A DNA stretch of 23,725 nt. Source: a virus. A program made the position numbers and the translations under genes. A model generated the notes under the pieces. It made no database searches. It was not told the DNA's origin and saw only the letters and a program-made list of their open reading frames with translations. Where the stretch lies: the IMG/VR virus record IMGVR_UViG_3300025927_000028, positions 1 to 23,725 of that record; one strand, written 5' to 3'. Below are positions 9,616 to 20,307 of the stretch, in pieces (position 1 is the stretch's first letter; the number at the start of each line of letters is the position of its first letter).

Positions 9616-10500
9616 TCAGTACTTGAACGTCCAGGTGTCGTCGCCGACAATGTTGTTGCCGGACGTAGCAACCGCCGTGACGGTAGCCGTCTGACCAGCG
9701 GTCAGAGCAGGCTGAGCACCAGGTGCCTTGTTGACACCGTTGATCTTCCACTGAACACCAGTGACCGTCGGCAGAGTGACCACGTGGGTCGACCCGTCGT
9801 ATGTCGGCTGGTTGGTCTCCTCGACCAAGTCGACATCGGTCAGACCGGTGCCGCCCATGGCCGCAAGAACCTCGTCGGGGGTGGGCATACGCGGATCGTC
9901 CACGTCGGTGCCCTGGACGATGTCCAGCAGATCGGCCAGAAGTGCCTGGTCGACCAGTGGGCTGGTGCTGTCGATCGTGAGAAGCGAGGTCGGCTTGAGG
10001 TCCGAGTACTCGTCTTCGACGAAAGACACCGGGTTGGACTCGAACTCCCAGCTGAGGGCCGTCATCTCGGGGCTGTCGTTCACCGTAGCGAAGGACTTCT
10101 CCGAGGGAGACGTGGTCAGGCCGTAGCCGAAGTGATGCTTGAAACCCGCTTCCGGATCCTGATCGTTGCCGACGATCGTACGGTAGTACAGATCGAACGG
10201 CTTGCGAGGCTGCTGACCAACGGCAACGCCGTTGACGAGCTTCATGCCATCGCATTCCAGGAACTCGTCGGGGCACATGTACGCCTCGACCGTGCCACCG
10301 AAGGTCTCGGCAGCGCGAATCGCGCCGTACACGATGTTGTCTGCGTACGTCTTGGTGTTGTCGGCACCCGCAGGCGTTTCCGTGACGTTGGTCAGGCCGT
10401 TCCAGCCCACCCCGTCGCCATCCTTCGGAAACAGGATGCCGTGGTCACAGCCGGTCTCGTACTTGCGAGTTCCGGCAGCATCCCATTGAATCGCTGTCAT
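9616..10500 (-). CDS. Major tail tube protein with C-terminal Ig-like domain
   Basis: A 294-residue protein preceded by TAGGAGGAAGA directly before the ATG. Position (terminator, tube, chaperone) and the fold-like N-terminus (WDAAGTRKYETGCDHGILFP, FGGTVEAYMCPDEF) mark it as the major tail tube protein, which polymerises as stacked rings around the tape measure. Residues about 231-294 form a separate Ig-like module (VVTLPTVTGVQWKINGV, then QTATVTAVATSGN...TWTFKY) close in sequence to the end of the capsid protein. The module probably decorates the outside of the tail. The gene is visibly more GC-rich than its neighbours, as expected for a very highly expressed virion gene with host-like codons. 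Confidence 0.9.
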   Translation of the reverse strand: MTAIQWDAAGTRKYETGCDHGILFPKDGDGVGWNGLTNVTETPAGADNTKTYADNIVYGAIRAAETFGGTVEAYMCPDEFLECDGMKLVNGVAVGQQPRKPFDLYYRTIVGNDQDPEAGFKHHFGYGLTTSPSEKSFATVNDSPEMTALSWEFESNPVSFVEDEYSDLKPTSLLTIDSTSPLVDQALLADLLDIVQGTDVDDPRMPTPDEVLAAMGGTGLTDVDLVEETNQPTYDGSTHVVTLPTVTGVQWKINGVNKAPGAQPALTAGQTATVTAVATSGNNIVGDDTWTFKY

Positions 10501-11130: not shown

Positions 11131-13353
11131 TCAGTCGCGGGTGAAGTTCCAGGTCGCGTCGAAGTTGTGCGGGAAGTAGTGACCCGAGGTCGGGTATGCC
11201 CGCACGTACACCGAAGCGCCAGAAGCGATCGCCGTCTGAGCACCAGCACTCAGAACCGCATTGGTCTCGTCGTTGCGGTACTCGACACCGGTGACCGTCG
11301 GGACCGTCAGAACACCGGTGCCGGTGTTGAAGGTCGGGATGTCCGGAGTTACCTCGGTGCCATTCGCACGCAGCAGAGCCAGCGCAGCCTTGTACTTGGT
11401 CAGAGAACCCGAGATCCGGGTCTCCATCAGGTACTTGTACTGGTTGTAGTCGATGTCGAAGTCGTCGAACAGGCCGATCTGGGCGCCCTTGTCGGCACCG
11501 ACCGTGTAGTCGATCAGGTTGACAATGAGCCCGAAGAGCTCGCCGTCGTCCGTCTGGACGCCCTCCATGACCTCGACGGTCACGATGTTCTTCACGCGAA
11601 GCGCAGTGGCCACGTCCGCCTCGGTCGGGTAGAGCCTACGGCCCATCCGGTCCTGCTCGAGGAGGAAGTCGGTCAGAGCGTCGTCGGTCGTGTACAGGGT
11701 GGGCGAACCCGAGCCCTTGTAGTACTTCCGAGCACGGAGGATGTACTCCACCTTGTCGCTCACGGTCGCGTTGGCCGGGCAGAGCACCTTGTGGGTGTAG
11801 ACGTCGTCGTCGAAGGCGATCGGACGGATGCCAGCGCCGTCACCGGCGGTCGGCGGCTCCTTGATCTTGTCCTCGTCGTCGATCTCGCGGCCGTCGCCGA
11901 TGAGGATCGCGCGCGCGATCTCCTCGTCGAGCATCATCCGCATCTCGACCTTCATCCACGCCACGACATCCATGTCCGTGATGTCCAGGATGTCGTCTCG
12001 ATCCAGCTTCTGCTTCTTGTAGATGGTGGCCGGAGAAGTGACGCGCTTCGAGAGCGTGAACCACTCGTCCTTCTTCAGGTTGCCCTTCTGGTAACCCTTG
12101 GCTCGTGCCTCGTCGGCCGTGATGTCGGCGAAGTAGGTCTTCACGCGGCTGAACGGCGAGTGCCGAACCCCGGTGAGAACCCCGTCGACCCACTCGACGC
12201 GGCGCATGATGAACTCCGGCGAGTCCTGGACCGGACGGGCGTCCGGGAACAGGTAGTCGATGTTCTCGATGCCGTACTCGACGTCGTGACCGAGGTGGTC
12301 AGCGGCCGCGCTGAGGATGTGCTCACGAAGGCTCCGCACACCGCTTCCGGGACGAGAGACGTCCCCCATGGCGCTGTGGAGGAGCTGGGATGCGGTCTGC
12401 CGATCCCAACGCTTGGTGAGATCCAGACCGCTGTGCTGAAGCGAGACGCTCTTGCCGGGGTTCTGGGTCTCGAAGACGTTTCGAGTGGTCATTTCTTCCT
12501 CGTTTCCTTCCTGGGTGTGAATGAGGTCGCCCTCGGGGTCTTGCTCGTCGGAGTGTGTCGCGGAGTCAGTGCCCTCGAGGGCCACTCCGATCATCACCCG
12601 AACAGCTGCCTGCTGGTCCGGGGTCATGCTTTCCCAGGCCTCGGCCACGCTAGCGTGCTCGAGATCCTCGTCGCCTGCCTCGTCCTCTACGGACTCTTCG
12701 GTAGACGTCTCTTCTGTCTCTTCTGCCTCTGCTGCATCTTCTGTCTCTGCTGCATCCTCGGAACCCTCTTCACTGGACTCCTCGGCCTCATCGGTCGGCT
12801 CGTCAGCGACGGGCTCCTCCGAGGGGACTGCGTGCTCGAGAGGCTGCCCCATGCGAATGAAGGCCTCGTCGGGCAGGGTCTGGATGCCCTGAGGGTCATC
12901 CGGGTCATCAGGATCGTCGCTATGAGCGATCTTGATGTTGTCGATCTTCGCACCTGAGTTCGCGCCCGCAAGAGCGAGAGACACTTCCTTGATGCCGCCA
13001 CCGAGAACGTGACGAACACCTGCGGAGATCTTCTCCTTCAGATCGTTCGCCCAGATGGACATCGAGTTGAGATCGCCGTGGTCGACGGTCTCCTTGGCGT
13101 GCTTGCCCTTGGCGGTCTTGTTGCAGTAGACGTAGCCGTACATTCCGTCGGGTCGCTTCTCCAGAAGCACGTGTCCGAGGACGTTTTCGACGTCCTTGTG
13201 ACCGTGCTGCCAGACGAACGGGACGACTTCGCCGTCCTGGTGCTCGAAGGCCTTGGCGTCAATCATCCGGCCGTCGGTGCACACGATCCCCGCCTTGGTC
13301 ACGTAGCCACTGAAGTCAGGCTCGCGATCGATCTGGGTAGTATTACTTCCCAT
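11131..13353 (-). CDS. Prohead protease - acidic linker - major capsid protein fusion with C-terminal Ig-like domain
   Basis: One 740-residue ORF, ATG behind AAGGAGAA. Residues 1 to about 145 are an HK97-type (U35) prohead protease: FVWQHGHKDVENVLGHV gives the His (H50 or H52) and GGIKEVSLALAGANSGA gives the Ser (S125). Residues about 145-287 are a very acidic, low-complexity linker rich in Glu/Asp/Ala, probably playing the part of the HK97 delta scaffold. From M288 the sequence is an HK97-fold capsid protein (MTTRNVFETQNPG; DDILDITDMDVVAWMKVEMR; DEEIARAILIGDGR). Residues about 669-740 are an Ig-like decoration domain (GVLTVPTVTGVEYR). The mature capsid protein must be released by cleavage in or near the linker, or made separately from the M288 start. 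Strikingly GC-rich (43 of 60 bases at 12181-12240). Confidence 0.93.
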   Translation of the reverse strand: MGSNTTQIDREPDFSGYVTKAGIVCTDGRMIDAKAFEHQDGEVVPFVWQHGHKDVENVLGHVLLEKRPDGMYGYVYCNKTAKGKHAKETVDHGDLNSMSIWANDLKEKISAGVRHVLGGGIKEVSLALAGANSGAKIDNIKIAHSDDPDDPDDPQGIQTLPDEAFIRMGQPLEHAVPSEEPVADEPTDEAEESSEEGSEDAAETEDAAEAEETEETSTEESVEDEAGDEDLEHASVAEAWESMTPDQQAAVRVMIGVALEGTDSATHSDEQDPEGDLIHTQEGNEEEMTTRNVFETQNPGKSVSLQHSGLDLTKRWDRQTASQLLHSAMGDVSRPGSGVRSLREHILSAAADHLGHDVEYGIENIDYLFPDARPVQDSPEFIMRRVEWVDGVLTGVRHSPFSRVKTYFADITADEARAKGYQKGNLKKDEWFTLSKRVTSPATIYKKQKLDRDDILDITDMDVVAWMKVEMRMMLDEEIARAILIGDGREIDDEDKIKEPPTAGDGAGIRPIAFDDDVYTHKVLCPANATVSDKVEYILRARKYYKGSGSPTLYTTDDALTDFLLEQDRMGRRLYPTEADVATALRVKNIVTVEVMEGVQTDDGELFGLIVNLIDYTVGADKGAQIGLFDDFDIDYNQYKYLMETRISGSLTKYKAALALLRANGTEVTPDIPTFNTGTGVLTVPTVTGVEYRNDETNAVLSAGAQTAIASGASVYVRAYPTSGHYFPHNFDATWNFTRD
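12490..12505 (-). promoter_or_regulatory. Possible internal ribosome site and start for free capsid protein
   Basis: Within the protease-capsid ORF, codon 288 is an ATG at 12490-12492, preceded at five bases by GAGG (12498-12501). This is exactly where sequence typical of capsid N-termini begins (MTTRNVFETQNPG). It could let ribosomes make a 453-residue capsid protein without the protease, giving the excess of capsid subunits an icosahedral head needs. The Glu codons of the acidic linker could also produce this purine run by chance. Confidence 0.45.
12707..12757 (-). repeat. Degenerate short tandem repeats encoding acidic linker
   Basis: The plus strand repeats variants of TCTTCTGTCTCT and TGCTGCATC, coding on the minus strand for Glu/Ala/Thr-rich sequence (AAETEDAAEAEETEETS). 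The repeats lie in the linker between protease and capsid domains, so length can vary without changing frame when units are multiples of three. Confidence 0.6.
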
Positions 13354-13379
13354 TTTGACGGTTCTCCTTCCGTTTCATC

Positions 13380-13988
13380 TCAACGGCCGTTCGATGCCGT
13401 TTGGTTTCGAGCTAGATCCTTTGCAGCTTTCAGTTTCGACTCGACATCGCTGATAACAGCTCTGGTCTTGTCGATCTGCTCTTGCAACGATGGTGCTGTC
13501 TTCGTTTCGTCCTTCTTGTCGGGCGTTGCCTTTTGTTCTTTGGCACGTTCCTTCTGTGCCTTAGCCAACGCATCCTTCGCAGCGGCCTTCTGAGCGGCAG
13601 TCTTTGGCTTACTGTCGCCCTTGGTGCCTCCTCCAGACTTCGAAGACGTGGAGTCGCTGCTTTTTGAATCACTACTCGATCCGGCCTCGGCCTTCTGCTT
13701 AGCGAGTAGTTCATTCAAGTGCTTCTTCAGCGTACCCAGACGTCCTTCAATCTGGGAAACCTGCCTTGCTGCTGAAGCGGCTTGAATAGCTTGTGTTCTG
13801 TTGGCGTGCACATTCGAAGCGGCATTGCCTCCTTCGACCACCCTTGACCCCACACCAGCCTTTGGTGCCGGGATCGGCTGTACCGACCCATTTCGACCCT
13901 TGAGCTGACGTGTCTTGAGATAGCGCTCTCGGCGAGCAACAGGATCGTAGGCCGCGTGTTGAATCACGTCGTCTACGCTACGGGGCAT
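13380..13988 (-). CDS. Putative scaffold-like capsid assembly protein
   Basis: A 202-residue protein between portal and protease-capsid genes, the usual scaffold position. I chose ATG 13988 (MPRSVDD) over an ATG two codons earlier, because the GGGGGTGG ribosome site directly abuts the earlier one; it overlaps the portal stop by 11 nt. The N-terminus SVDDVIQHAAYDPVARR, followed by YLKTRQLKGR, resembles a region found in phage proteins that carry the GVKGMKWGVR motif. The middle is helical coiled-coil-like (ASAARQVSQIEGRLGTLKKH), the next part is Ser/Asp/Lys-rich, and the end is again charged and helical (LQEQIDKTRAVISDVESKLK). High charge, coiled coils and lack of enzyme motifs fit a scaffold. 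Function is inferred. Confidence 0.68.
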   Translation of the reverse strand: MPRSVDDVIQHAAYDPVARRERYLKTRQLKGRNGSVQPIPAPKAGVGSRVVEGGNAASNVHANRTQAIQAASAARQVSQIEGRLGTLKKHLNELLAKQKAEAGSSSDSKSSDSTSSKSGGGTKGDSKPKTAAQKAAAKDALAKAQKERAKEQKATPDKKDETKTAPSLQEQIDKTRAVISDVESKLKAAKDLARNQTASNGR

Positions 13989-15351
13989 TCTCATCCACCC
14001 CCAGATCCTTGAAAGCCTTGTCGAGAATGGAATTCATCTCATCGAATAGCGGCTGAGTGGCATCAGGAGCAACTCCTGTCCCATCAACCGCAGGATCAAC
14101 AATCGGATCGCCATTCTGGTCCAACGCAGCATTGTTTCCTCCAGGCATGTTACTGTTGGAAAGCTTATTTGCATTCGGATCAGGATGTGGCTTGAAACCG
14201 ATCTTCGGACGAATCTCATTTGCCGTGATGACTTCGTTTCGAAGAAGTGCGTTGATGAGATTAGCCATCTCTGACAACGGAATGAACTGCCACTGATCCC
14301 AGTACGTCAGGATCGATTGTCCTTGAGTTCGAGCAGTCTTCGTCAAGAAAGAACGAATCATTCCTTCTTTGACTGCCTTTACAAGAGGACCAACGGTTCG
14401 GTTCATGTACTGAAGCATCGTCTTCTCGTCAGCAGAACCATCCATGATCTCGGGCTTGAGTCCGAGCTGACTGTACAACAGGTTCACGAGGTATTCGACT
14501 TGACTCATGAGACTGTTGTCCACAGGCCTGTTGAGCTGAATGACCTTGTCGTTGGCATCGATGTATCCGATGCCCAACGGACTGTCCTTCAACTGACTTT
14601 CGAGGAAGGAACGACGCTCTTCTGCCTGATTCTGCTTGGTCTGTCCACGAACCGTGTAAGGCAGCTGAATCAGAAGATCCAACTTTCCGTTCACAGACTT
14701 CTCGTCAAGAGTGTCGAGAATCGCCAGCTTGCGAACAAGTCGCTGAAGAACACTGGCCCCGTCATTCATGACCTCGTGGAATGGGTTGTAGATGATAGCT
14801 ACGGAATTCTTAGGAACTGTAAGTTCCTTCCGTTGACCATCGGTCTCGTCATAGGCAGAAAGCTTTACATGCTGTGGATACCATTGCAGAATTTCCGCAA
14901 CACGCATCTTGAGAACGTCCCAACCCCCACTAATGTCGGGATTGATAGTAGTGTCCGTAGGAAGAATCGCGATACATCCATTGTCAAACATGGACATGTA
15001 GACATCGAGGAAGAAAGCCAGAGGCGCCTGATCAATGTTCGCTTCGACAGTCAAGCAATTGTTCAGATTGCTGGGAATATCTTCCTTGTACTGATCATCG
15101 TCGTCAAGCCTTACGTGACGAAAGTCAACGCTGGCCGCGTCAAGAGCCATACGAACGTAGATCGCAGTCAAGAGCGTCTTGTCGTTGGCATAACGAAGAC
15201 TGACCGATCCGGAACTACGTCCTGAAGACTGCCCATAGAAACGCGAGTACTGGTTTTGCTTCGCAAACGACTGAGTTTCTCTGTCAGAGACGAAAGCATT
15301 CCAAGCGTGACGAAGTGACTTACCGATTCGTGTACGCCGTGGTTCTGCCAT
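13978..15351 (-). CDS. Portal protein
   Basis: A 457-residue protein behind GGGAGGTGAC, directly downstream of terminase. The sequence has the pattern of HK97-type portals: a helical N-terminal arm, YANDKTLLTAIYVRMALDAA, a beta-rich wing, NSVAIIYNPFHEVMNDGASV, the stem region LVNLLYSQLGLKPEIMDGSA followed by DEKTMLQYMNRTVGPLVKAV, and the late NEVITANEIRPKIGFKPHPD that is typical of siphophage portals. The Asp/Asn-rich C-terminal tail may lie inside the head. Portals form the dodecameric ring through which terminase pumps DNA. Length is normal for the family. Confidence 0.93.
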   Translation of the reverse strand: MAEPRRTRIGKSLRHAWNAFVSDRETQSFAKQNQYSRFYGQSSGRSSGSVSLRYANDKTLLTAIYVRMALDAASVDFRHVRLDDDDQYKEDIPSNLNNCLTVEANIDQAPLAFFLDVYMSMFDNGCIAILPTDTTINPDISGGWDVLKMRVAEILQWYPQHVKLSAYDETDGQRKELTVPKNSVAIIYNPFHEVMNDGASVLQRLVRKLAILDTLDEKSVNGKLDLLIQLPYTVRGQTKQNQAEERRSFLESQLKDSPLGIGYIDANDKVIQLNRPVDNSLMSQVEYLVNLLYSQLGLKPEIMDGSADEKTMLQYMNRTVGPLVKAVKEGMIRSFLTKTARTQGQSILTYWDQWQFIPLSEMANLINALLRNEVITANEIRPKIGFKPHPDPNANKLSNSNMPGGNNAALDQNGDPIVDPAVDGTGVAPDATQPLFDEMNSILDKAFKDLGVDENAP

Positions 15352-15371
15352 TAGTCACCTCCCTTCCTGTG

Positions 15372-17120
15372 TCATTCGAACATCTCCTTGTTGAGTTTCC
15401 AAGCAACGAAAGCATCTAGAGCCGCCGATACGTTGTCGATCTTTTCTTCGTAGCGTTTCTTCATGAGCTTTCTGTTGTAGTTCGTGTCCTCCTCGACAAC
15501 CGCATTACCCATGCAGTACTGCATGAGAAGCTCATCGAAGAGAAGGAGACGTTCTTCGGACAGGTTCTTGAGTTCGCCGAGTGGGACCGACTCGGTTCTT
15601 GCCCCCTGAATGACTCGTTCCATACCGTAAGGACCATTCATCTGCTTCCACTTTTCAACGAAAGCATGAGCACCGTAAAGGTCATAGCCAAAGGTACGTA
15701 CATCGTAGTCACAGGTCTGAATGTGTGCATCGAGATCATCGAAGATCTGACCATCGACATCCAAGATAGTTCCAGGCATGACATGAAGGCTGCCTTCATC
15801 AATGAACTCGTCATACTTGGACCGAGTAGATCCAGGAAGTCGACCCATGGTTCGTTCTGTGATGTAGCTACGAACCTTTACTCCAAATTTTCCGTTTGGG
15901 AGGGGAAACAAAAAGGTGAATGCGCAGAAGTCATCACCCTGCGACAGGTCGGCACCCAAAGAACAAGGGAGTCCCCAGAACTTACGCTTACGATGGGGCA
16001 GAGTTTCTTCGTATGTGAAGAAGTATGTGAATCCTGCCATCGGAATGCCAAAGCGCTTTGCCAGGATGTCATTACGTTGTGAGGGCGACTTTTCTGCACG
16101 CTCTACCGCCTTGTGGTAGGTAGAATATGACACGGTCTTAGCAAGATTCGGCTGTGCCTTGACCCACATGTCCGGATTCTTGATCTCTTCAAGCTCATCC
16201 AACTTGTAATGCCAGATAGAAATCTCAGGAGCAATATAGTCACCCTTGAGAATCTCCTGAAGAGTCAGCTTGATGTTGTCACCAGCACCGTTTCGAACTG
16301 TTCCTTCTGAACTGACTGCTACAATGAGCCAATCATCGACCTTTTCCGCTCCCTGTCGAATAGCCTCAACAACATCCTCACGAATATCGCCTGACAGCCA
16401 CTCATCCACCGTGTTGTACTTGGACCGAAGTCCTTGAAGCTTGTCAATCGACATGGGTCGTACTTCAAGCAAGGAGCCGGTCAGAAAGTTCTCGACTCCC
16501 TTCTTAGTGGGAACCAACTTCTGTCTGAGAGCTCGTGACCCCGTAGTGTTTTGAAGTGAACCCTCCGTCAGAAACTTGAAGTACGGCCCTCGCGCACGGG
16601 TGATGGAAGTGCGAATAGGACCGATGATCTCTTCGGCTTGTTTCATCGTTGGAGCGGTAGTGATCTGATGGGTAGTATGTCGATCGCAGTTCAGACCATA
16701 GTTCTGAATGCACGACTCATAGAGCGATTTAGCCGCACCACGAGCCACGATCAGATACTGGATGTTGGTAAGACGCTTCTTGACTGTCTTACGCTCCCAG
16801 TGACCTCCGCGACCGTCTTCATTCTTGACGTAGTCGTCAAACTCTTCGAAGAACCACCATCCGAACACTTGTTCCGACCACACCTTGAAGGTGTCGAGCA
16901 GAACTAAAGGCTCTCCGTCAGTAAGCGTAAGCTCATCTTCGCAGAACCTGACAAAGCCTTCTACCTTGGACCCGTCGTAGTAGACGCGCGGGCTGGCGAT
17001 GAGCGCTTCAATGCGATCCATCTCCATGAGGATCTCCCGGCAAACCGGAATTTCCTTTTGGAGAACCAAATCGCGGAACTCCTCGTAGTACACGGGCACT
17101 GCCCGATTACTCAAACTCAT
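15372..17120 (-). CDS. Terminase large subunit
   Basis: A 582-residue protein. ATG 17120 is preferred to a TTG two codons earlier because GGAGG lies seven bases before it. The ATPase half shows a terminase-style deviant Walker A (ARGAAKS, residues 126-132), the TTAPTMKQAEEI segment and Walker B ending in D239-E240 (YNTVDEW). The C-terminal nuclease half shows GADLSQGDD with D391, FGYDLYGAHAF near 477-487 and DNVSAALDAFVAW with late acidic D562 and D569. It therefore cuts concatemeric DNA and drives packaging through the portal encoded 20 bases downstream. Length is usual for Terminase_1-type proteins. No large insertion or inactivating change is seen. Confidence 0.95.
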   Translation of the reverse strand: MSLSNRAVPVYYEEFRDLVLQKEIPVCREILMEMDRIEALIASPRVYYDGSKVEGFVRFCEDELTLTDGEPLVLLDTFKVWSEQVFGWWFFEEFDDYVKNEDGRGGHWERKTVKKRLTNIQYLIVARGAAKSLYESCIQNYGLNCDRHTTHQITTAPTMKQAEEIIGPIRTSITRARGPYFKFLTEGSLQNTTGSRALRQKLVPTKKGVENFLTGSLLEVRPMSIDKLQGLRSKYNTVDEWLSGDIREDVVEAIRQGAEKVDDWLIVAVSSEGTVRNGAGDNIKLTLQEILKGDYIAPEISIWHYKLDELEEIKNPDMWVKAQPNLAKTVSYSTYHKAVERAEKSPSQRNDILAKRFGIPMAGFTYFFTYEETLPHRKRKFWGLPCSLGADLSQGDDFCAFTFLFPLPNGKFGVKVRSYITERTMGRLPGSTRSKYDEFIDEGSLHVMPGTILDVDGQIFDDLDAHIQTCDYDVRTFGYDLYGAHAFVEKWKQMNGPYGMERVIQGARTESVPLGELKNLSEERLLLFDELLMQYCMGNAVVEEDTNYNRKLMKKRYEEKIDNVSAALDAFVAWKLNKEMFE

Positions 17121-17138
17121 CGCCAACCCTCCCTTCTA

Positions 17139-18317
17139 CTACTTGCCCTTCTTGGGGGCCATGCGCTTGGAAACCTCTACAAGAGCCTTACCGGCATCAA
17201 GGTTTGACGGCAGCTTCTCTTTAGGATCGAAATGCTTGGAGCTCTTGTGCAGCTTAAGTCCTGTAGCTAGAACCGCTTGCTCCATAGCAACGTCAAGCGC
17301 CTTGTTCACAACACGGTCAATTTGTCGACTGCCCTGACTCTTGATGAACCTCTTGATGAAACCATCGGTCTTGGCCTTGGTAGCCACCGATTGCTCAGAA
17401 AGAGCCTTGTTGACGTCCTTCTCCAGCTGAAGTCGACGCGTGTAGGACTGAAGCTCTGTGTTCGACAGAGAATGAATCCCGTTCGTGTCGATCTTCTTCT
17501 GAATCCGATCCTGGGCGATCTGATCGGCAGAACCCGTGCGAGGCTTCAAGCCCGTCGAAACCGGCTCCGAAGATGCCTTCTTTCCGACCACTCGAGAGAC
17601 TAGTCCCGATGAACCGACAGGACGACGGACGCCCCACTTCTGACCCTTGATGCCGTGGTGAGCGAGAACCTCATCTACAGCATCACTATGCGCTGCCGAT
17701 CCCGGCAGGCCCGTTCCGCTTGCCAAGAAAAGCACCACCGATCTTTCAGTAGGAGTCATAGAGGCCCAACCATCTTGTACGTCAGGATCGTCTGCAAACT
17801 CAACACCCTGAGTTGCATCCTCGATCAGAAGATGCGCAGAAAGCTTCTGCTTGGGTGTGAGAGCGTTGTATACCTGCTCGACGGTTGGATCGCTTGGACC
17901 GTCTGCGTGAGCTACCGAAACTACACGAGCCTTGGCTCGCTTTGCATAGCTAATGTAGTTCTGAACATATGCTGCTCGAGTGGCGACAGTTGCTGCCAAA
18001 GCAACCTTTGCCGAAAGAACCGTAGTTCCTCCGGCCGCGGCTACTACTGCTGCTGGAAGTAGACCCGGTGCAAGACCAGCGGCAGCGATCCCTAATACTG
18101 AGAGACCTGCGATTTGAGCCGATCTCTTCGCATAGGCATGATCTACCAGAACCTGCTTTGCCTTAGCCGCTCCAGCAGCTGCTCGAGGACTTTCTGAAGA
18201 GCTAGCCTTTGCCGAGGCAGTTCCAGAAGAACTACCAGACGTTGCGGCTTTCCGGACGCCCCACTTTTGACCCTTTACGCCGTGATGTTCAAGCACTTCG
18301 TCTACAGTCTTCTTCAT
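17139..18317 (-). CDS. Protein with two HHG(V/I)KGQKWGVR motifs, likely head-assembly protein
   Basis: A 392-residue protein starting at ATG 18317 behind AAAGGAGG; a longer reading upstream would run back into the LamG gene. The motif VDEVLEHHGVKGQKWGVRK occurs at residues 5-23 and again as VDEVLAHHGIKGQKWGVRR at 214-232. This GVKGxKWGVR motif is widespread in phage structural proteins, function not settled. Residues about 70-125 are hydrophobic (VLGIAAAGLAPGLLPAAVVA) and could insert in a membrane. Two helical modules follow (VYNALTPKQKLSAHLLIEDA; GWASMTPTERSVVLFLASG), then AHSD. The C-terminal half is basic and helical, with LSNTELQSYTRRLQLEK as in related phage proteins. Position before terminase and motifs shared with the protease-capsid ORF suggest a head assembly role. 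Confidence 0.75.
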   Translation of the reverse strand: MKKTVDEVLEHHGVKGQKWGVRKAATSGSSSGTASAKASSSESPRAAAGAAKAKQVLVDHAYAKRSAQIAGLSVLGIAAAGLAPGLLPAAVVAAAGGTTVLSAKVALAATVATRAAYVQNYISYAKRAKARVVSVAHADGPSDPTVEQVYNALTPKQKLSAHLLIEDATQGVEFADDPDVQDGWASMTPTERSVVLFLASGTGLPGSAAHSDAVDEVLAHHGIKGQKWGVRRPVGSSGLVSRVVGKKASSEPVSTGLKPRTGSADQIAQDRIQKKIDTNGIHSLSNTELQSYTRRLQLEKDVNKALSEQSVATKAKTDGFIKRFIKSQGSRQIDRVVNKALDVAMEQAVLATGLKLHKSSKHFDPKEKLPSNLDAGKALVEVSKRMAPKKGK

Positions 18318-19395: not shown

Positions 19396-20307
19396 TCATG
19401 CTCCCATCAGTAAGAAAGCGTCAATCGCAGATCCACCGCCTGCTGACCCAGCAGGACCTGTAGCACCGGTGGCACCAGTAGGACCTAAGAGACTGCCCGC
19501 AACAGATCCCCAAGCTCCAGAGGCCTTGGGACCGTAATAGTCACCGTTCGAACGAAGATAGAAATCTCCGTTAGCTCCAGTTCCATTTGAAGGAGCACCA
19601 GATCCTGTGTACCACTTGGATCCGTCTGCTCCTGCCGGTCCGGTCGAACCCGTAGGTCCAGGAACGGTAGAGTCAGCTCCATCGGCTCCTACAAGACTCT
19701 CTAGCCACTCTGCTTCCGTGCCCGAGAAACCGTTGTTGACGGCAACTTCGTACGCGCTGTCGCCATCCGCACCGTCGGAACCTGGTGGTCCAGGTACGGT
19801 CGAATCTGCGCCGGGATCTCCCGTATCTCCCTTATCACCCTTGTCGCCCTTGGGGCCCGGAACTGTGGAGTCAGCACCATCGGTGCCTGGGGGACCGGGA
19901 ACTGTAGACGCTGCACCCTCTGGCCCTTCCGGACCCTCAGGTCCGACAAGGCTATCGAGCCATTCAGCCTCTGTGCCAGTGAAACCATTGCTGACTGCAA
20001 CCTCATAAGCGCTCGGGCCATCTTCTCCAGGAGGTCCCGGCACCGTCGAATCAGCTCCGGCGTCACCTGTATCTCCCTTATCGCCTTTGTCGCCCTTGGG
20101 GCCCGGAACTGTGGAGTCAGCGCCTGGATCTCCCGTGTCGCCTTTGTCACCCTTGTCTCCCTTCGGACCAGGGACTGTCGAATCAGCTCCATCAGAACCA
20201 GAAGGACCCTGAGGGCCACGTCCTTGATCAACAGTCATGTGAATTGGAGTCGGAAGCTCTAGCTGAATCGTGTCTCCATCACGAAGCTCAAGGATCATCT
20301 CACTCAT
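19396..20307 (-). CDS. Collagen-like tail fibre protein
   Basis: A 303-residue protein overlapping the preceding stop by 4 nt; GGAGA lies upstream of the ATG. A short N-terminal head (MSEMILELRDGDTIQLELPT) probably anchors it to the virion. Then come long Gly-X-Y collagen-like stretches with three exact STVPGPKGDKGDKGDTGD copies, broken by two copies of an AYEVAV(S/N)NGF(T/S)GTEAEWL module. Next is a fibre-tip module (WYTGSGAPS..TGANGDFYLRSNGDYYGP, GAWG) and a last Gly-rich part ending in AIDAFLLMGA. Collagen-like triple helices give long trimeric fibres. It is likely a receptor-binding fibre or fibre stalk; the chaperone or cap may be encoded next door. Confidence 0.92.
   Translation of the reverse strand: MSEMILELRDGDTIQLELPTPIHMTVDQGRGPQGPSGSDGADSTVPGPKGDKGDKGDTGDPGADSTVPGPKGDKGDKGDTGDAGADSTVPGPPGEDGPSAYEVAVSNGFTGTEAEWLDSLVGPEGPEGPEGAASTVPGPPGTDGADSTVPGPKGDKGDKGDTGDPGADSTVPGPPGSDGADGDSAYEVAVNNGFSGTEAEWLESLVGADGADSTVPGPTGSTGPAGADGSKWYTGSGAPSNGTGANGDFYLRSNGDYYGPKASGAWGSVAGSLLGPTGATGATGPAGSAGGGSAIDAFLLMGA
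19687..20190. repeat. Collagen-like coding repeats and two 72-bp fibre modules
   Basis: The DNA encodes three STVPGPKGDKGDKGDTGD blocks (near 19812-19875, 20058-20120 and 20127-20190) plus two 72-bp modules (19687-19758 and 19942-20013) that encode SAYEVAV(S/N)NGF(T/S)GTEAEWL(D/E)SLVG. The DNA copies have diverged at third positions, so they are not recent exact duplications, but they would still allow length change by recombination. Confidence 0.85.

Follow-up and report, generated by a model that had tools for sequence, protein, structure and literature searches.

What is the role of short sequence strings that recur among neighbouring head genes of a single phage? This question is raised by a 23,725-nucleotide stretch of viral DNA (positions 1 to 23,725 of IMG/VR virus record IMGVR_UViG_3300025927_000028; the whole stretch is hereafter the window), whose minus strand carries a head module encoding a LamG-like protein, a 392-amino acid protein, the terminase, the portal, a 204-amino acid protein, a 740-amino acid fusion of prohead protease and major capsid protein, and tail genes. 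A preliminary description of the window had quoted three kinds of string, V-D-(D/E)-V-(L/I)-x-H, a (Y/W)xx(L/M)TP module and A-H-(S/A)-D, and proposed that they serve as cleavage signals for the prohead protease or as a common docking element. The strings are indeed present on the minus strand, and comparison with related phages lends support to both ideas, but it divides the strings into three separate things: a tag of the Pfam family DUF7211 (PF23847), a Phi-x-H site, where Phi is aliphatic, and a helical TP module. In the reading that we favour, and consider fairly probable, Phi-x-H is the site of the prohead protease and DUF7211 is a tag for loading proteins into the procapsid. This reading is built on sequence, conservation, statistics, genomic linkage and fold prediction, from which we infer cleavage, the bond that is cut, loading, ejection and the partner of the tag.

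The fusion matches the full-length profile phrog_3270, that of the fusion in Lactococcus 1706-like phages, over residues 11-695. Its predicted structure, based on an alignment of sequences from the window and from contig loci only, shows a protease domain to about residue 141, disorder at 142-231, TP helices at 236-260, disorder at 262-325 and a C-terminal capsid part with the HK97 fold, which matches HK97, T5 and gene transfer agent capsids at TMt of about 0.6. The match to Pfam S78 is weak and below the cut-off (18.1 bits against 21, E 0.0032), and by profile the protease falls outside that family. The strings IAHSDD, ATHSDE, VAHADG and AAHSDA all fit Phi-x-H-[S/A/G], and they are far from random, being instances of a wider pattern, Phi-x-H-[S/A/G/T]-[D/E], that occurs at 5.4 per 1000 residues in fusions versus 0.15 in other open reading frames (ORFs) of the same phages, a difference of about 36-fold. 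In 77 non-redundant fusions, the linker and the N-arm of the capsid part together hold 395 occurrences of [LIVMFA]-x-H-[SAGT], versus 54 when each linker was shuffled. When all 20 residues were tried in the His position, His gave a z of about 52 and the next, Tyr, 7.3; Phi-x-Glu showed no enrichment in these regions comparable to that of Phi-x-His. An aliphatic residue or Phe occupies position -2 of 93% of linker His residues (92% in bacterial prophages), versus 53% and 43% elsewhere in the same proteins. The number of sites per linker ranges from 4 to 14, and in the fusion of the window the border sites lie at residues 142-144, 231-233, 265-267 and 324-326. Outside the fusion, a Phi-x-H is found within the first 35 residues of all nine proteins of the 204-residue type, of 12 of 13 portals, where it takes the form [LIV]xH[AGS]WNxF or close, of none of 13 terminases and of 50 of 212 other genes, while the 30 residues ahead of internal tags hold Phi-x-H with a following small residue at 9 times the density of the rest of the tagged proteins (p 3e-10). 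The sites thus gather in the linker, most of which is disordered, at domain borders and ahead of internal tags, and Phi-x-H recurs near the N-termini of proteins expected in the procapsid but not near that of the terminase. Protease sites would be distributed in this way, and Phi-x-H-[S/A/G] is most likely what the fused prohead protease recognizes, His being the probable P1 residue. Of the combined reading, cleavage of the linker at Phi-x-H-[SAG] is the part that we hold to be somewhat more probable than the whole.

The second element, HHG(V/I)KGQKWGVR, corresponds to DUF7211, to which Pfam assigns no function. The copies of V-D-(D/E)-V-(L/I)-x-H at the start and in the middle of the 392-residue protein are two such tags, both above the curated Pfam cut-off (41.0 and 39.5 bits versus 27). 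The copy said to open a 202-residue protein (204 residues from the first ATG, 202 from the second) reads SVDDVIQH and shares only the front half of the tag; in relatives of this type that half (VENFLAHY, DDFIAHY) leads into a different block, YDPVKAxEYYLRTRxLKGR, which is strongly conserved and matches no Pfam family above cut-off. A literature search with two tag strings and DUF7211 found no paper naming either in the library searched, and solved structures gave no sequence match to the fusion or the tag. The tag is N-terminal or internal on otherwise dissimilar proteins, in 1-9 copies per phage, clustered mainly between the lysis genes and the portal; Arthrobacter phage Paella has nine tagged proteins and Rhodococcus phage ReqiPepy6 eight. 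The H, G, G, W and G of HxGxxGxxWG are invariant in 151 tags from 59 records, partly by construction, as the profile that collected them was seeded with this pattern. In 248 of 301 tagged ORFs there is an in-frame ATG no more than 25 residues from the tag, and in several others the start looks like GTG or TTG, the gene starts being partly guessed. Tags are more alike within phages than between phages (similarity 0.63 versus 0.52, pairs with similar bodies excluded), and label shuffling in a first version of this test never matched the observed difference; in the 22 residues that follow the tag the effect is absent. To judge from its distribution, DUF7211 most likely targets its proteins to the procapsid, a variable set of accessory proteins thereby entering the prohead in this phage lineage. 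A variant tag, (D/E)(D/E)ILMHYGVKRRSGRYPWGSG or close, heads other proteins in prophages of mostly Bacillota contigs (loci L103, L104, L107, L114, L123, L125, L148 and L149), one of them a 921-residue protein with a C-terminal helix-turn-helix.

Tag and fusion have nearly identical host breakdowns. The 50,697 phage records searched by tblastn include 244 with the fusion and 245 with the tag; per host genus the counts agree except for Rhodococcus (4 and 5), where a 3.1-kb fragment with a tag is likely the extra record; these counts were compared by host breakdown rather than listed record by record. Both occur together in 25 of 25 whole records tested. Among 64 tag loci in contigs of bacterial or archaeal genomes, the fusion is within reach in 44, identical to the 44 in which a portal was detected; the other 20 are short contigs or stretches without a detected portal, several of which share a contig or genome with a fusion-bearing locus. 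The nearest cultured relatives of the phage in the window are Lactococcus 1706-like phages of Arthrobacter, Streptomyces, Gordonia, Rhodococcus, Microbacterium, Curtobacterium and Lactococcus.

The third element, the helical TP module, recurs as a conserved unit in the linkers of the fusions examined, in 1 to 5 copies. Its two copies in the 392-residue protein are real, as none of 5000 shuffles reached 13.9 bits and none had two matches at 8. Of 140 tagged ORFs, only that of the 392-residue protein and its duplicate in record L016 contain a convincing match, so that among tagged proteins the module is confined to this phage, and the idea that it belongs to tagged proteins in general was rejected. 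We likewise rejected a recent duplication, because the two copies lack clear similarity in their DNA. A Phi-x-H site lies no more than 15 residues upstream of the module in 65% of cases versus 42% by random placement, a modest excess, and the number of TP modules rises with that of tags (Spearman 0.57; phylogenetic contrasts r 0.49, p 0.005), a correlation that allows, but does not show, that TP modules receive the tags. The 392-residue protein itself, whose gene lies directly upstream of the terminase, is the orthologue of orf7 of Lactococcus phage 1706, deposited as a structural protein. Its structure model is weak (mean predicted local distance difference test score 57) and was used solely for helix placement. 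A 43.9 kb record with an identical fusion has the same two DUF7211 tags and none beyond. In the arrangement AAHSD-AVDEVLAHHG a site of the Phi-x-H type lies just ahead of the second tag, so that cutting there would expose this tag.

The events in the procapsid can then be pictured as follows. The fused protease would release itself by a cut after I-A-H144, break up the disordered linker around the TP helix and trim the capsid N-arm near residues 326-356. It would also cut the two-tag protein between VAH and AD and between AAH and SD, whereby the second tag would become N-terminal, and would perhaps trim the portal and the 204-residue protein; some tagged accessory proteins may be ejected into the host. 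A fuller proposal, in which DUF7211 would be a portable loading tag for interchangeable effector-like proteins, the linker TP helix its receptor and a His-specific protease the enzyme that cuts Phi-x-H and frees both cargo and shell, strikes us as rather unlikely; the broad lineage concerned has hosts among the Actinomycetota and Bacillota, and some contigs assigned to other phyla contain tag loci as well.

Several observations weigh against the combined reading of Phi-x-H as protease site and DUF7211 as loading tag. The residue after His is Y/F/H in the tag and small in the linker sites, and the conserved GxxGxxWG lies C-terminal of the tag His, so that after a cut at this His the protein would retain most of the tag, unlike in T4. 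Both features suggest that the tag may be a docking element that is left uncut, and we find cleavage inside the tag doubtful. Only 16 occurrences of Phi-x-H[SAGT] precede internal tags, many of which have none, and some tags lie outside the region from the lysis genes to the portal. Fourfold-degenerate sites of tags within a phage are 0.42 alike versus 0.315 expected, a partial rise which suggests that recent copying explains part, not all, of their likeness. The co-occurrence of tag and fusion in part reflects a jointly inherited head module. The p-values are too optimistic, since homologous sequences are not independent. The shuffles were made within proteins, with no evolutionary model, and no N-terminal or mass-spectrometry data were found for any member of the family.

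Docking might even be the whole explanation, the Phi-x-H of the linker and the LxHxGxxGxxWG tag both binding a common partner (the capsid inner face, the portal or the TP helices), much as encapsulin cargo peptides do, and neither being a protease site. This would agree with the conservation of the tag well past its His, with the greater likeness of tags within phages and with a tag number that tracks TP-module number. However, the linker sites are largely in predicted disorder at domain borders and as numerous as redundant cut sites would be, the small residue at +1 fits a P1' preference, and His144 at the protease border is invariant, all of which make docking alone an unlikely account.

The combined reading also has to be set against common descent, and here the proteins behind the tag are informative. 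In 105 tagged proteins, picked mostly for dissimilarity, 30 Pfam families were matched in all; DUF7211 itself was matched in 100, and the bodies are mostly without known domain, the remainder including papain-fold deamidase-like domains (5), GNAT acetyltransferases (4), 2H phosphoesterases (2) and other single cases, one of them a portal in a Bacillota contig. Phage proteins presumed to be delivered into the host repeatedly contain GNAT and 2H domains (PMC5512222). The MuF domain was absent from the 25 commonest Pfam families of these 105 proteins and from the window proteins scanned. Through head-gene mosaicism, the tag could simply be the usual N-terminal part of a single large minor head protein family that diversified by duplication, and no signal at all. 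Several bodies do group into recurring clusters, the biggest with 65 members, a weakly similar C-terminal region is common to many, and within phages there is some excess synonymous identity. But 137 of the 301 tagged ORFs survive a length and redundancy filter, the bodies include unrelated enzyme folds and a portal, and the residues following the tag lack within-phage similarity, which leaves this explanation improbable. Finally, the linker looks acidic and repetitive and the motifs are short, but the idea that low-complexity linkers and simple motifs yield such strings by chance is scarcely credible and, for Phi-x-H and the tag, is refuted by the shuffled counts and by the fact that no other residue comes near His.

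Further observations concern the tagged bodies. Single-linkage clustering of them at E 1e-3 was uninformative owing to chaining. A second body type, with (K/R)NGPPYPL or close directly after the tag, occurs in many prophages of mostly Bacillota contigs (L103, L114, L118, L128, L135, L137, L138 and L154), some of the genes lying in stretches without terminase or portal. At L010:3552-5144 and L011:8092-9801, long N-terminal regions ahead of an internal tag look by eye like 2H phosphoesterase (RNA ligase-like) domains. On an Erysipelotrichaceae contig, L145:4372-6069 encodes a portal protein whose N-terminus bears a DUF7211-like tag.

Table 1. Head-module genes of the window with their putative cleavage sites, tags and TP modules.
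Feature	Position	Strand	Remarks
Prohead protease and major capsid protein fusion, 740 residues	11131..13353	-	phrog_3270, E 1.2e-207
Phi-x-H site L-G-H, just before conserved capsid start YGIEN-IDYLFPDA	12286..12294	-	Candidate mature N-terminus
Phi-x-H site L-L-H(S)	12376..12384	-	His326 nearly invariant
Phi-x-H site L-Q-H(S)	12433..12441	-	
Phi-x-H site L-I-H(T)	12517..12525	-	
Phi-x-H site A-T-H(S-D), behind TP module	12553..12561	-	
Linker TP module, helices 236-241 and 245-260	12571..12654	-	
Phi-x-H site L-E-H(A-S), immediately ahead of TP module	12655..12663	-	
Phi-x-H site L-E-H(A), disordered linker	12832..12840	-	
Phi-x-H site I-A-H(S-D), end of protease domain	12922..12930	-	His144 invariant in 49 sequences
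Protease domain, residues 1-141	12931..13353	-	Ordered in model
204-residue protein (phrog_12541), N-terminal block YDPVARRERYLKTRQLKGR	13380..13994	-	
Phi-x-H site I-Q-H(A-A-Y-D-P) of 204-residue protein	13956..13964	-	
Portal protein	13978..15351	-	Pfam Phage_portal, 9.8e-12
Phi-x-H site L-R-H(A-W-N-A-F) near portal N-terminus	15307..15315	-	
Terminase large subunit	15372..17126	-	Control: no Phi-x-H in first 35 residues
392-residue protein: two DUF7211 tags, hydrophobic segment, two TP modules, conserved C-terminal LSNxELQ region	17139..18317	-	
Conserved LSNxELQxxxxRxxLE region of 1706-orf7-like protein	17400..17468	-	
DUF7211 tag 2, VDEVLAHHGIKGQKWGVRR, internal	17622-17678	-	Pfam DUF7211 match
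Phi-x-H site A-A-H(S-D), just ahead of internal tag	17688..17696	-	
TP module copy 2, DVQDGWASMTPTERSVVLFLASG	17715..17783	-	8.0 bits to linker-module profile; modelled helical
TP module copy 1, DPTVEQVYNALTPKQKLSAHLLIED	17817..17891	-	13.9 bits to linker-module profile; modelled helical
Phi-x-H site V-A-H(A-D), preceding both TP modules	17907..17915	-	
DUF7211 tag 1, VDEVLEHHGVKGQKWGVRK, N-terminal	18249-18305	-	Pfam DUF7211 match

Two other features of the minus strand deserve mention. The fusion and the putative major tail protein have similar C-terminal domains of about 64 residues (11131-11334 and 9616-9849; 39% identity, E 1e-10), perhaps a shared Ig-like surface domain, and a probable tail fibre at 19396-20307 has collagen-like GxY repeats and repeated ADSTVPGP units.

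The combined reading offers a testable function for a Pfam family that has none and predicts the cleavage rule of a widespread prohead protease. It would allow probable virion cargo to be read from sequence alone in hundreds of phages and prophages, and a loading tag this short would be convenient for packing marker proteins into capsids.

The prohead protease gp21 of T4 cuts after the Glu of (L/I)-x-E. In T4, short N-terminal capsid-targeting signals on variable internal proteins are cut by gp21, and accessory proteins, among them Alt and the internal proteins (IPs), are ejected (PMC9026906). The DUF7211 tag is likewise a short N-terminal signal common to dissimilar head-region proteins. It differs in that Phi-x-His would take the place of the aliphatic-x-Glu motif, that the conserved tag extends past the His whereas the targeting residues of T4 precede the cut, and that the protease here is fused to the capsid protein. 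In phiKZ and SPN3US, portal and capsid propeptides that hold several copies of the cleavage motif are cut; the motif of phiKZ is S/A-x-E, and the SPN3US prohead protease prefers Ser at P1' (PMC9026906, PMC10052503). Redundant motif copies and, as in SPN3US, a small residue after the putative cut recur in our system, where the motif would be Phi-x-His. MuF polymorphic toxins and polyvalent proteins are likewise phage proteins that carry variable enzyme domains, GNAT and 2H among them, and are presumed to be packaged or delivered (PMC5512222), but the shared part here is a tag of 20-25 residues and the MuF domain is not among the commonest families matched by the tagged proteins. The fusion resembles HK97 in its capsid fold, in the prohead protease that precedes the capsid part and in the expected removable N-terminal region; it differs in that protease and capsid form one polypeptide, in which a linker, disordered over most of its length and carrying TP helices and Phi-x-H sites, makes up the delta-like region.

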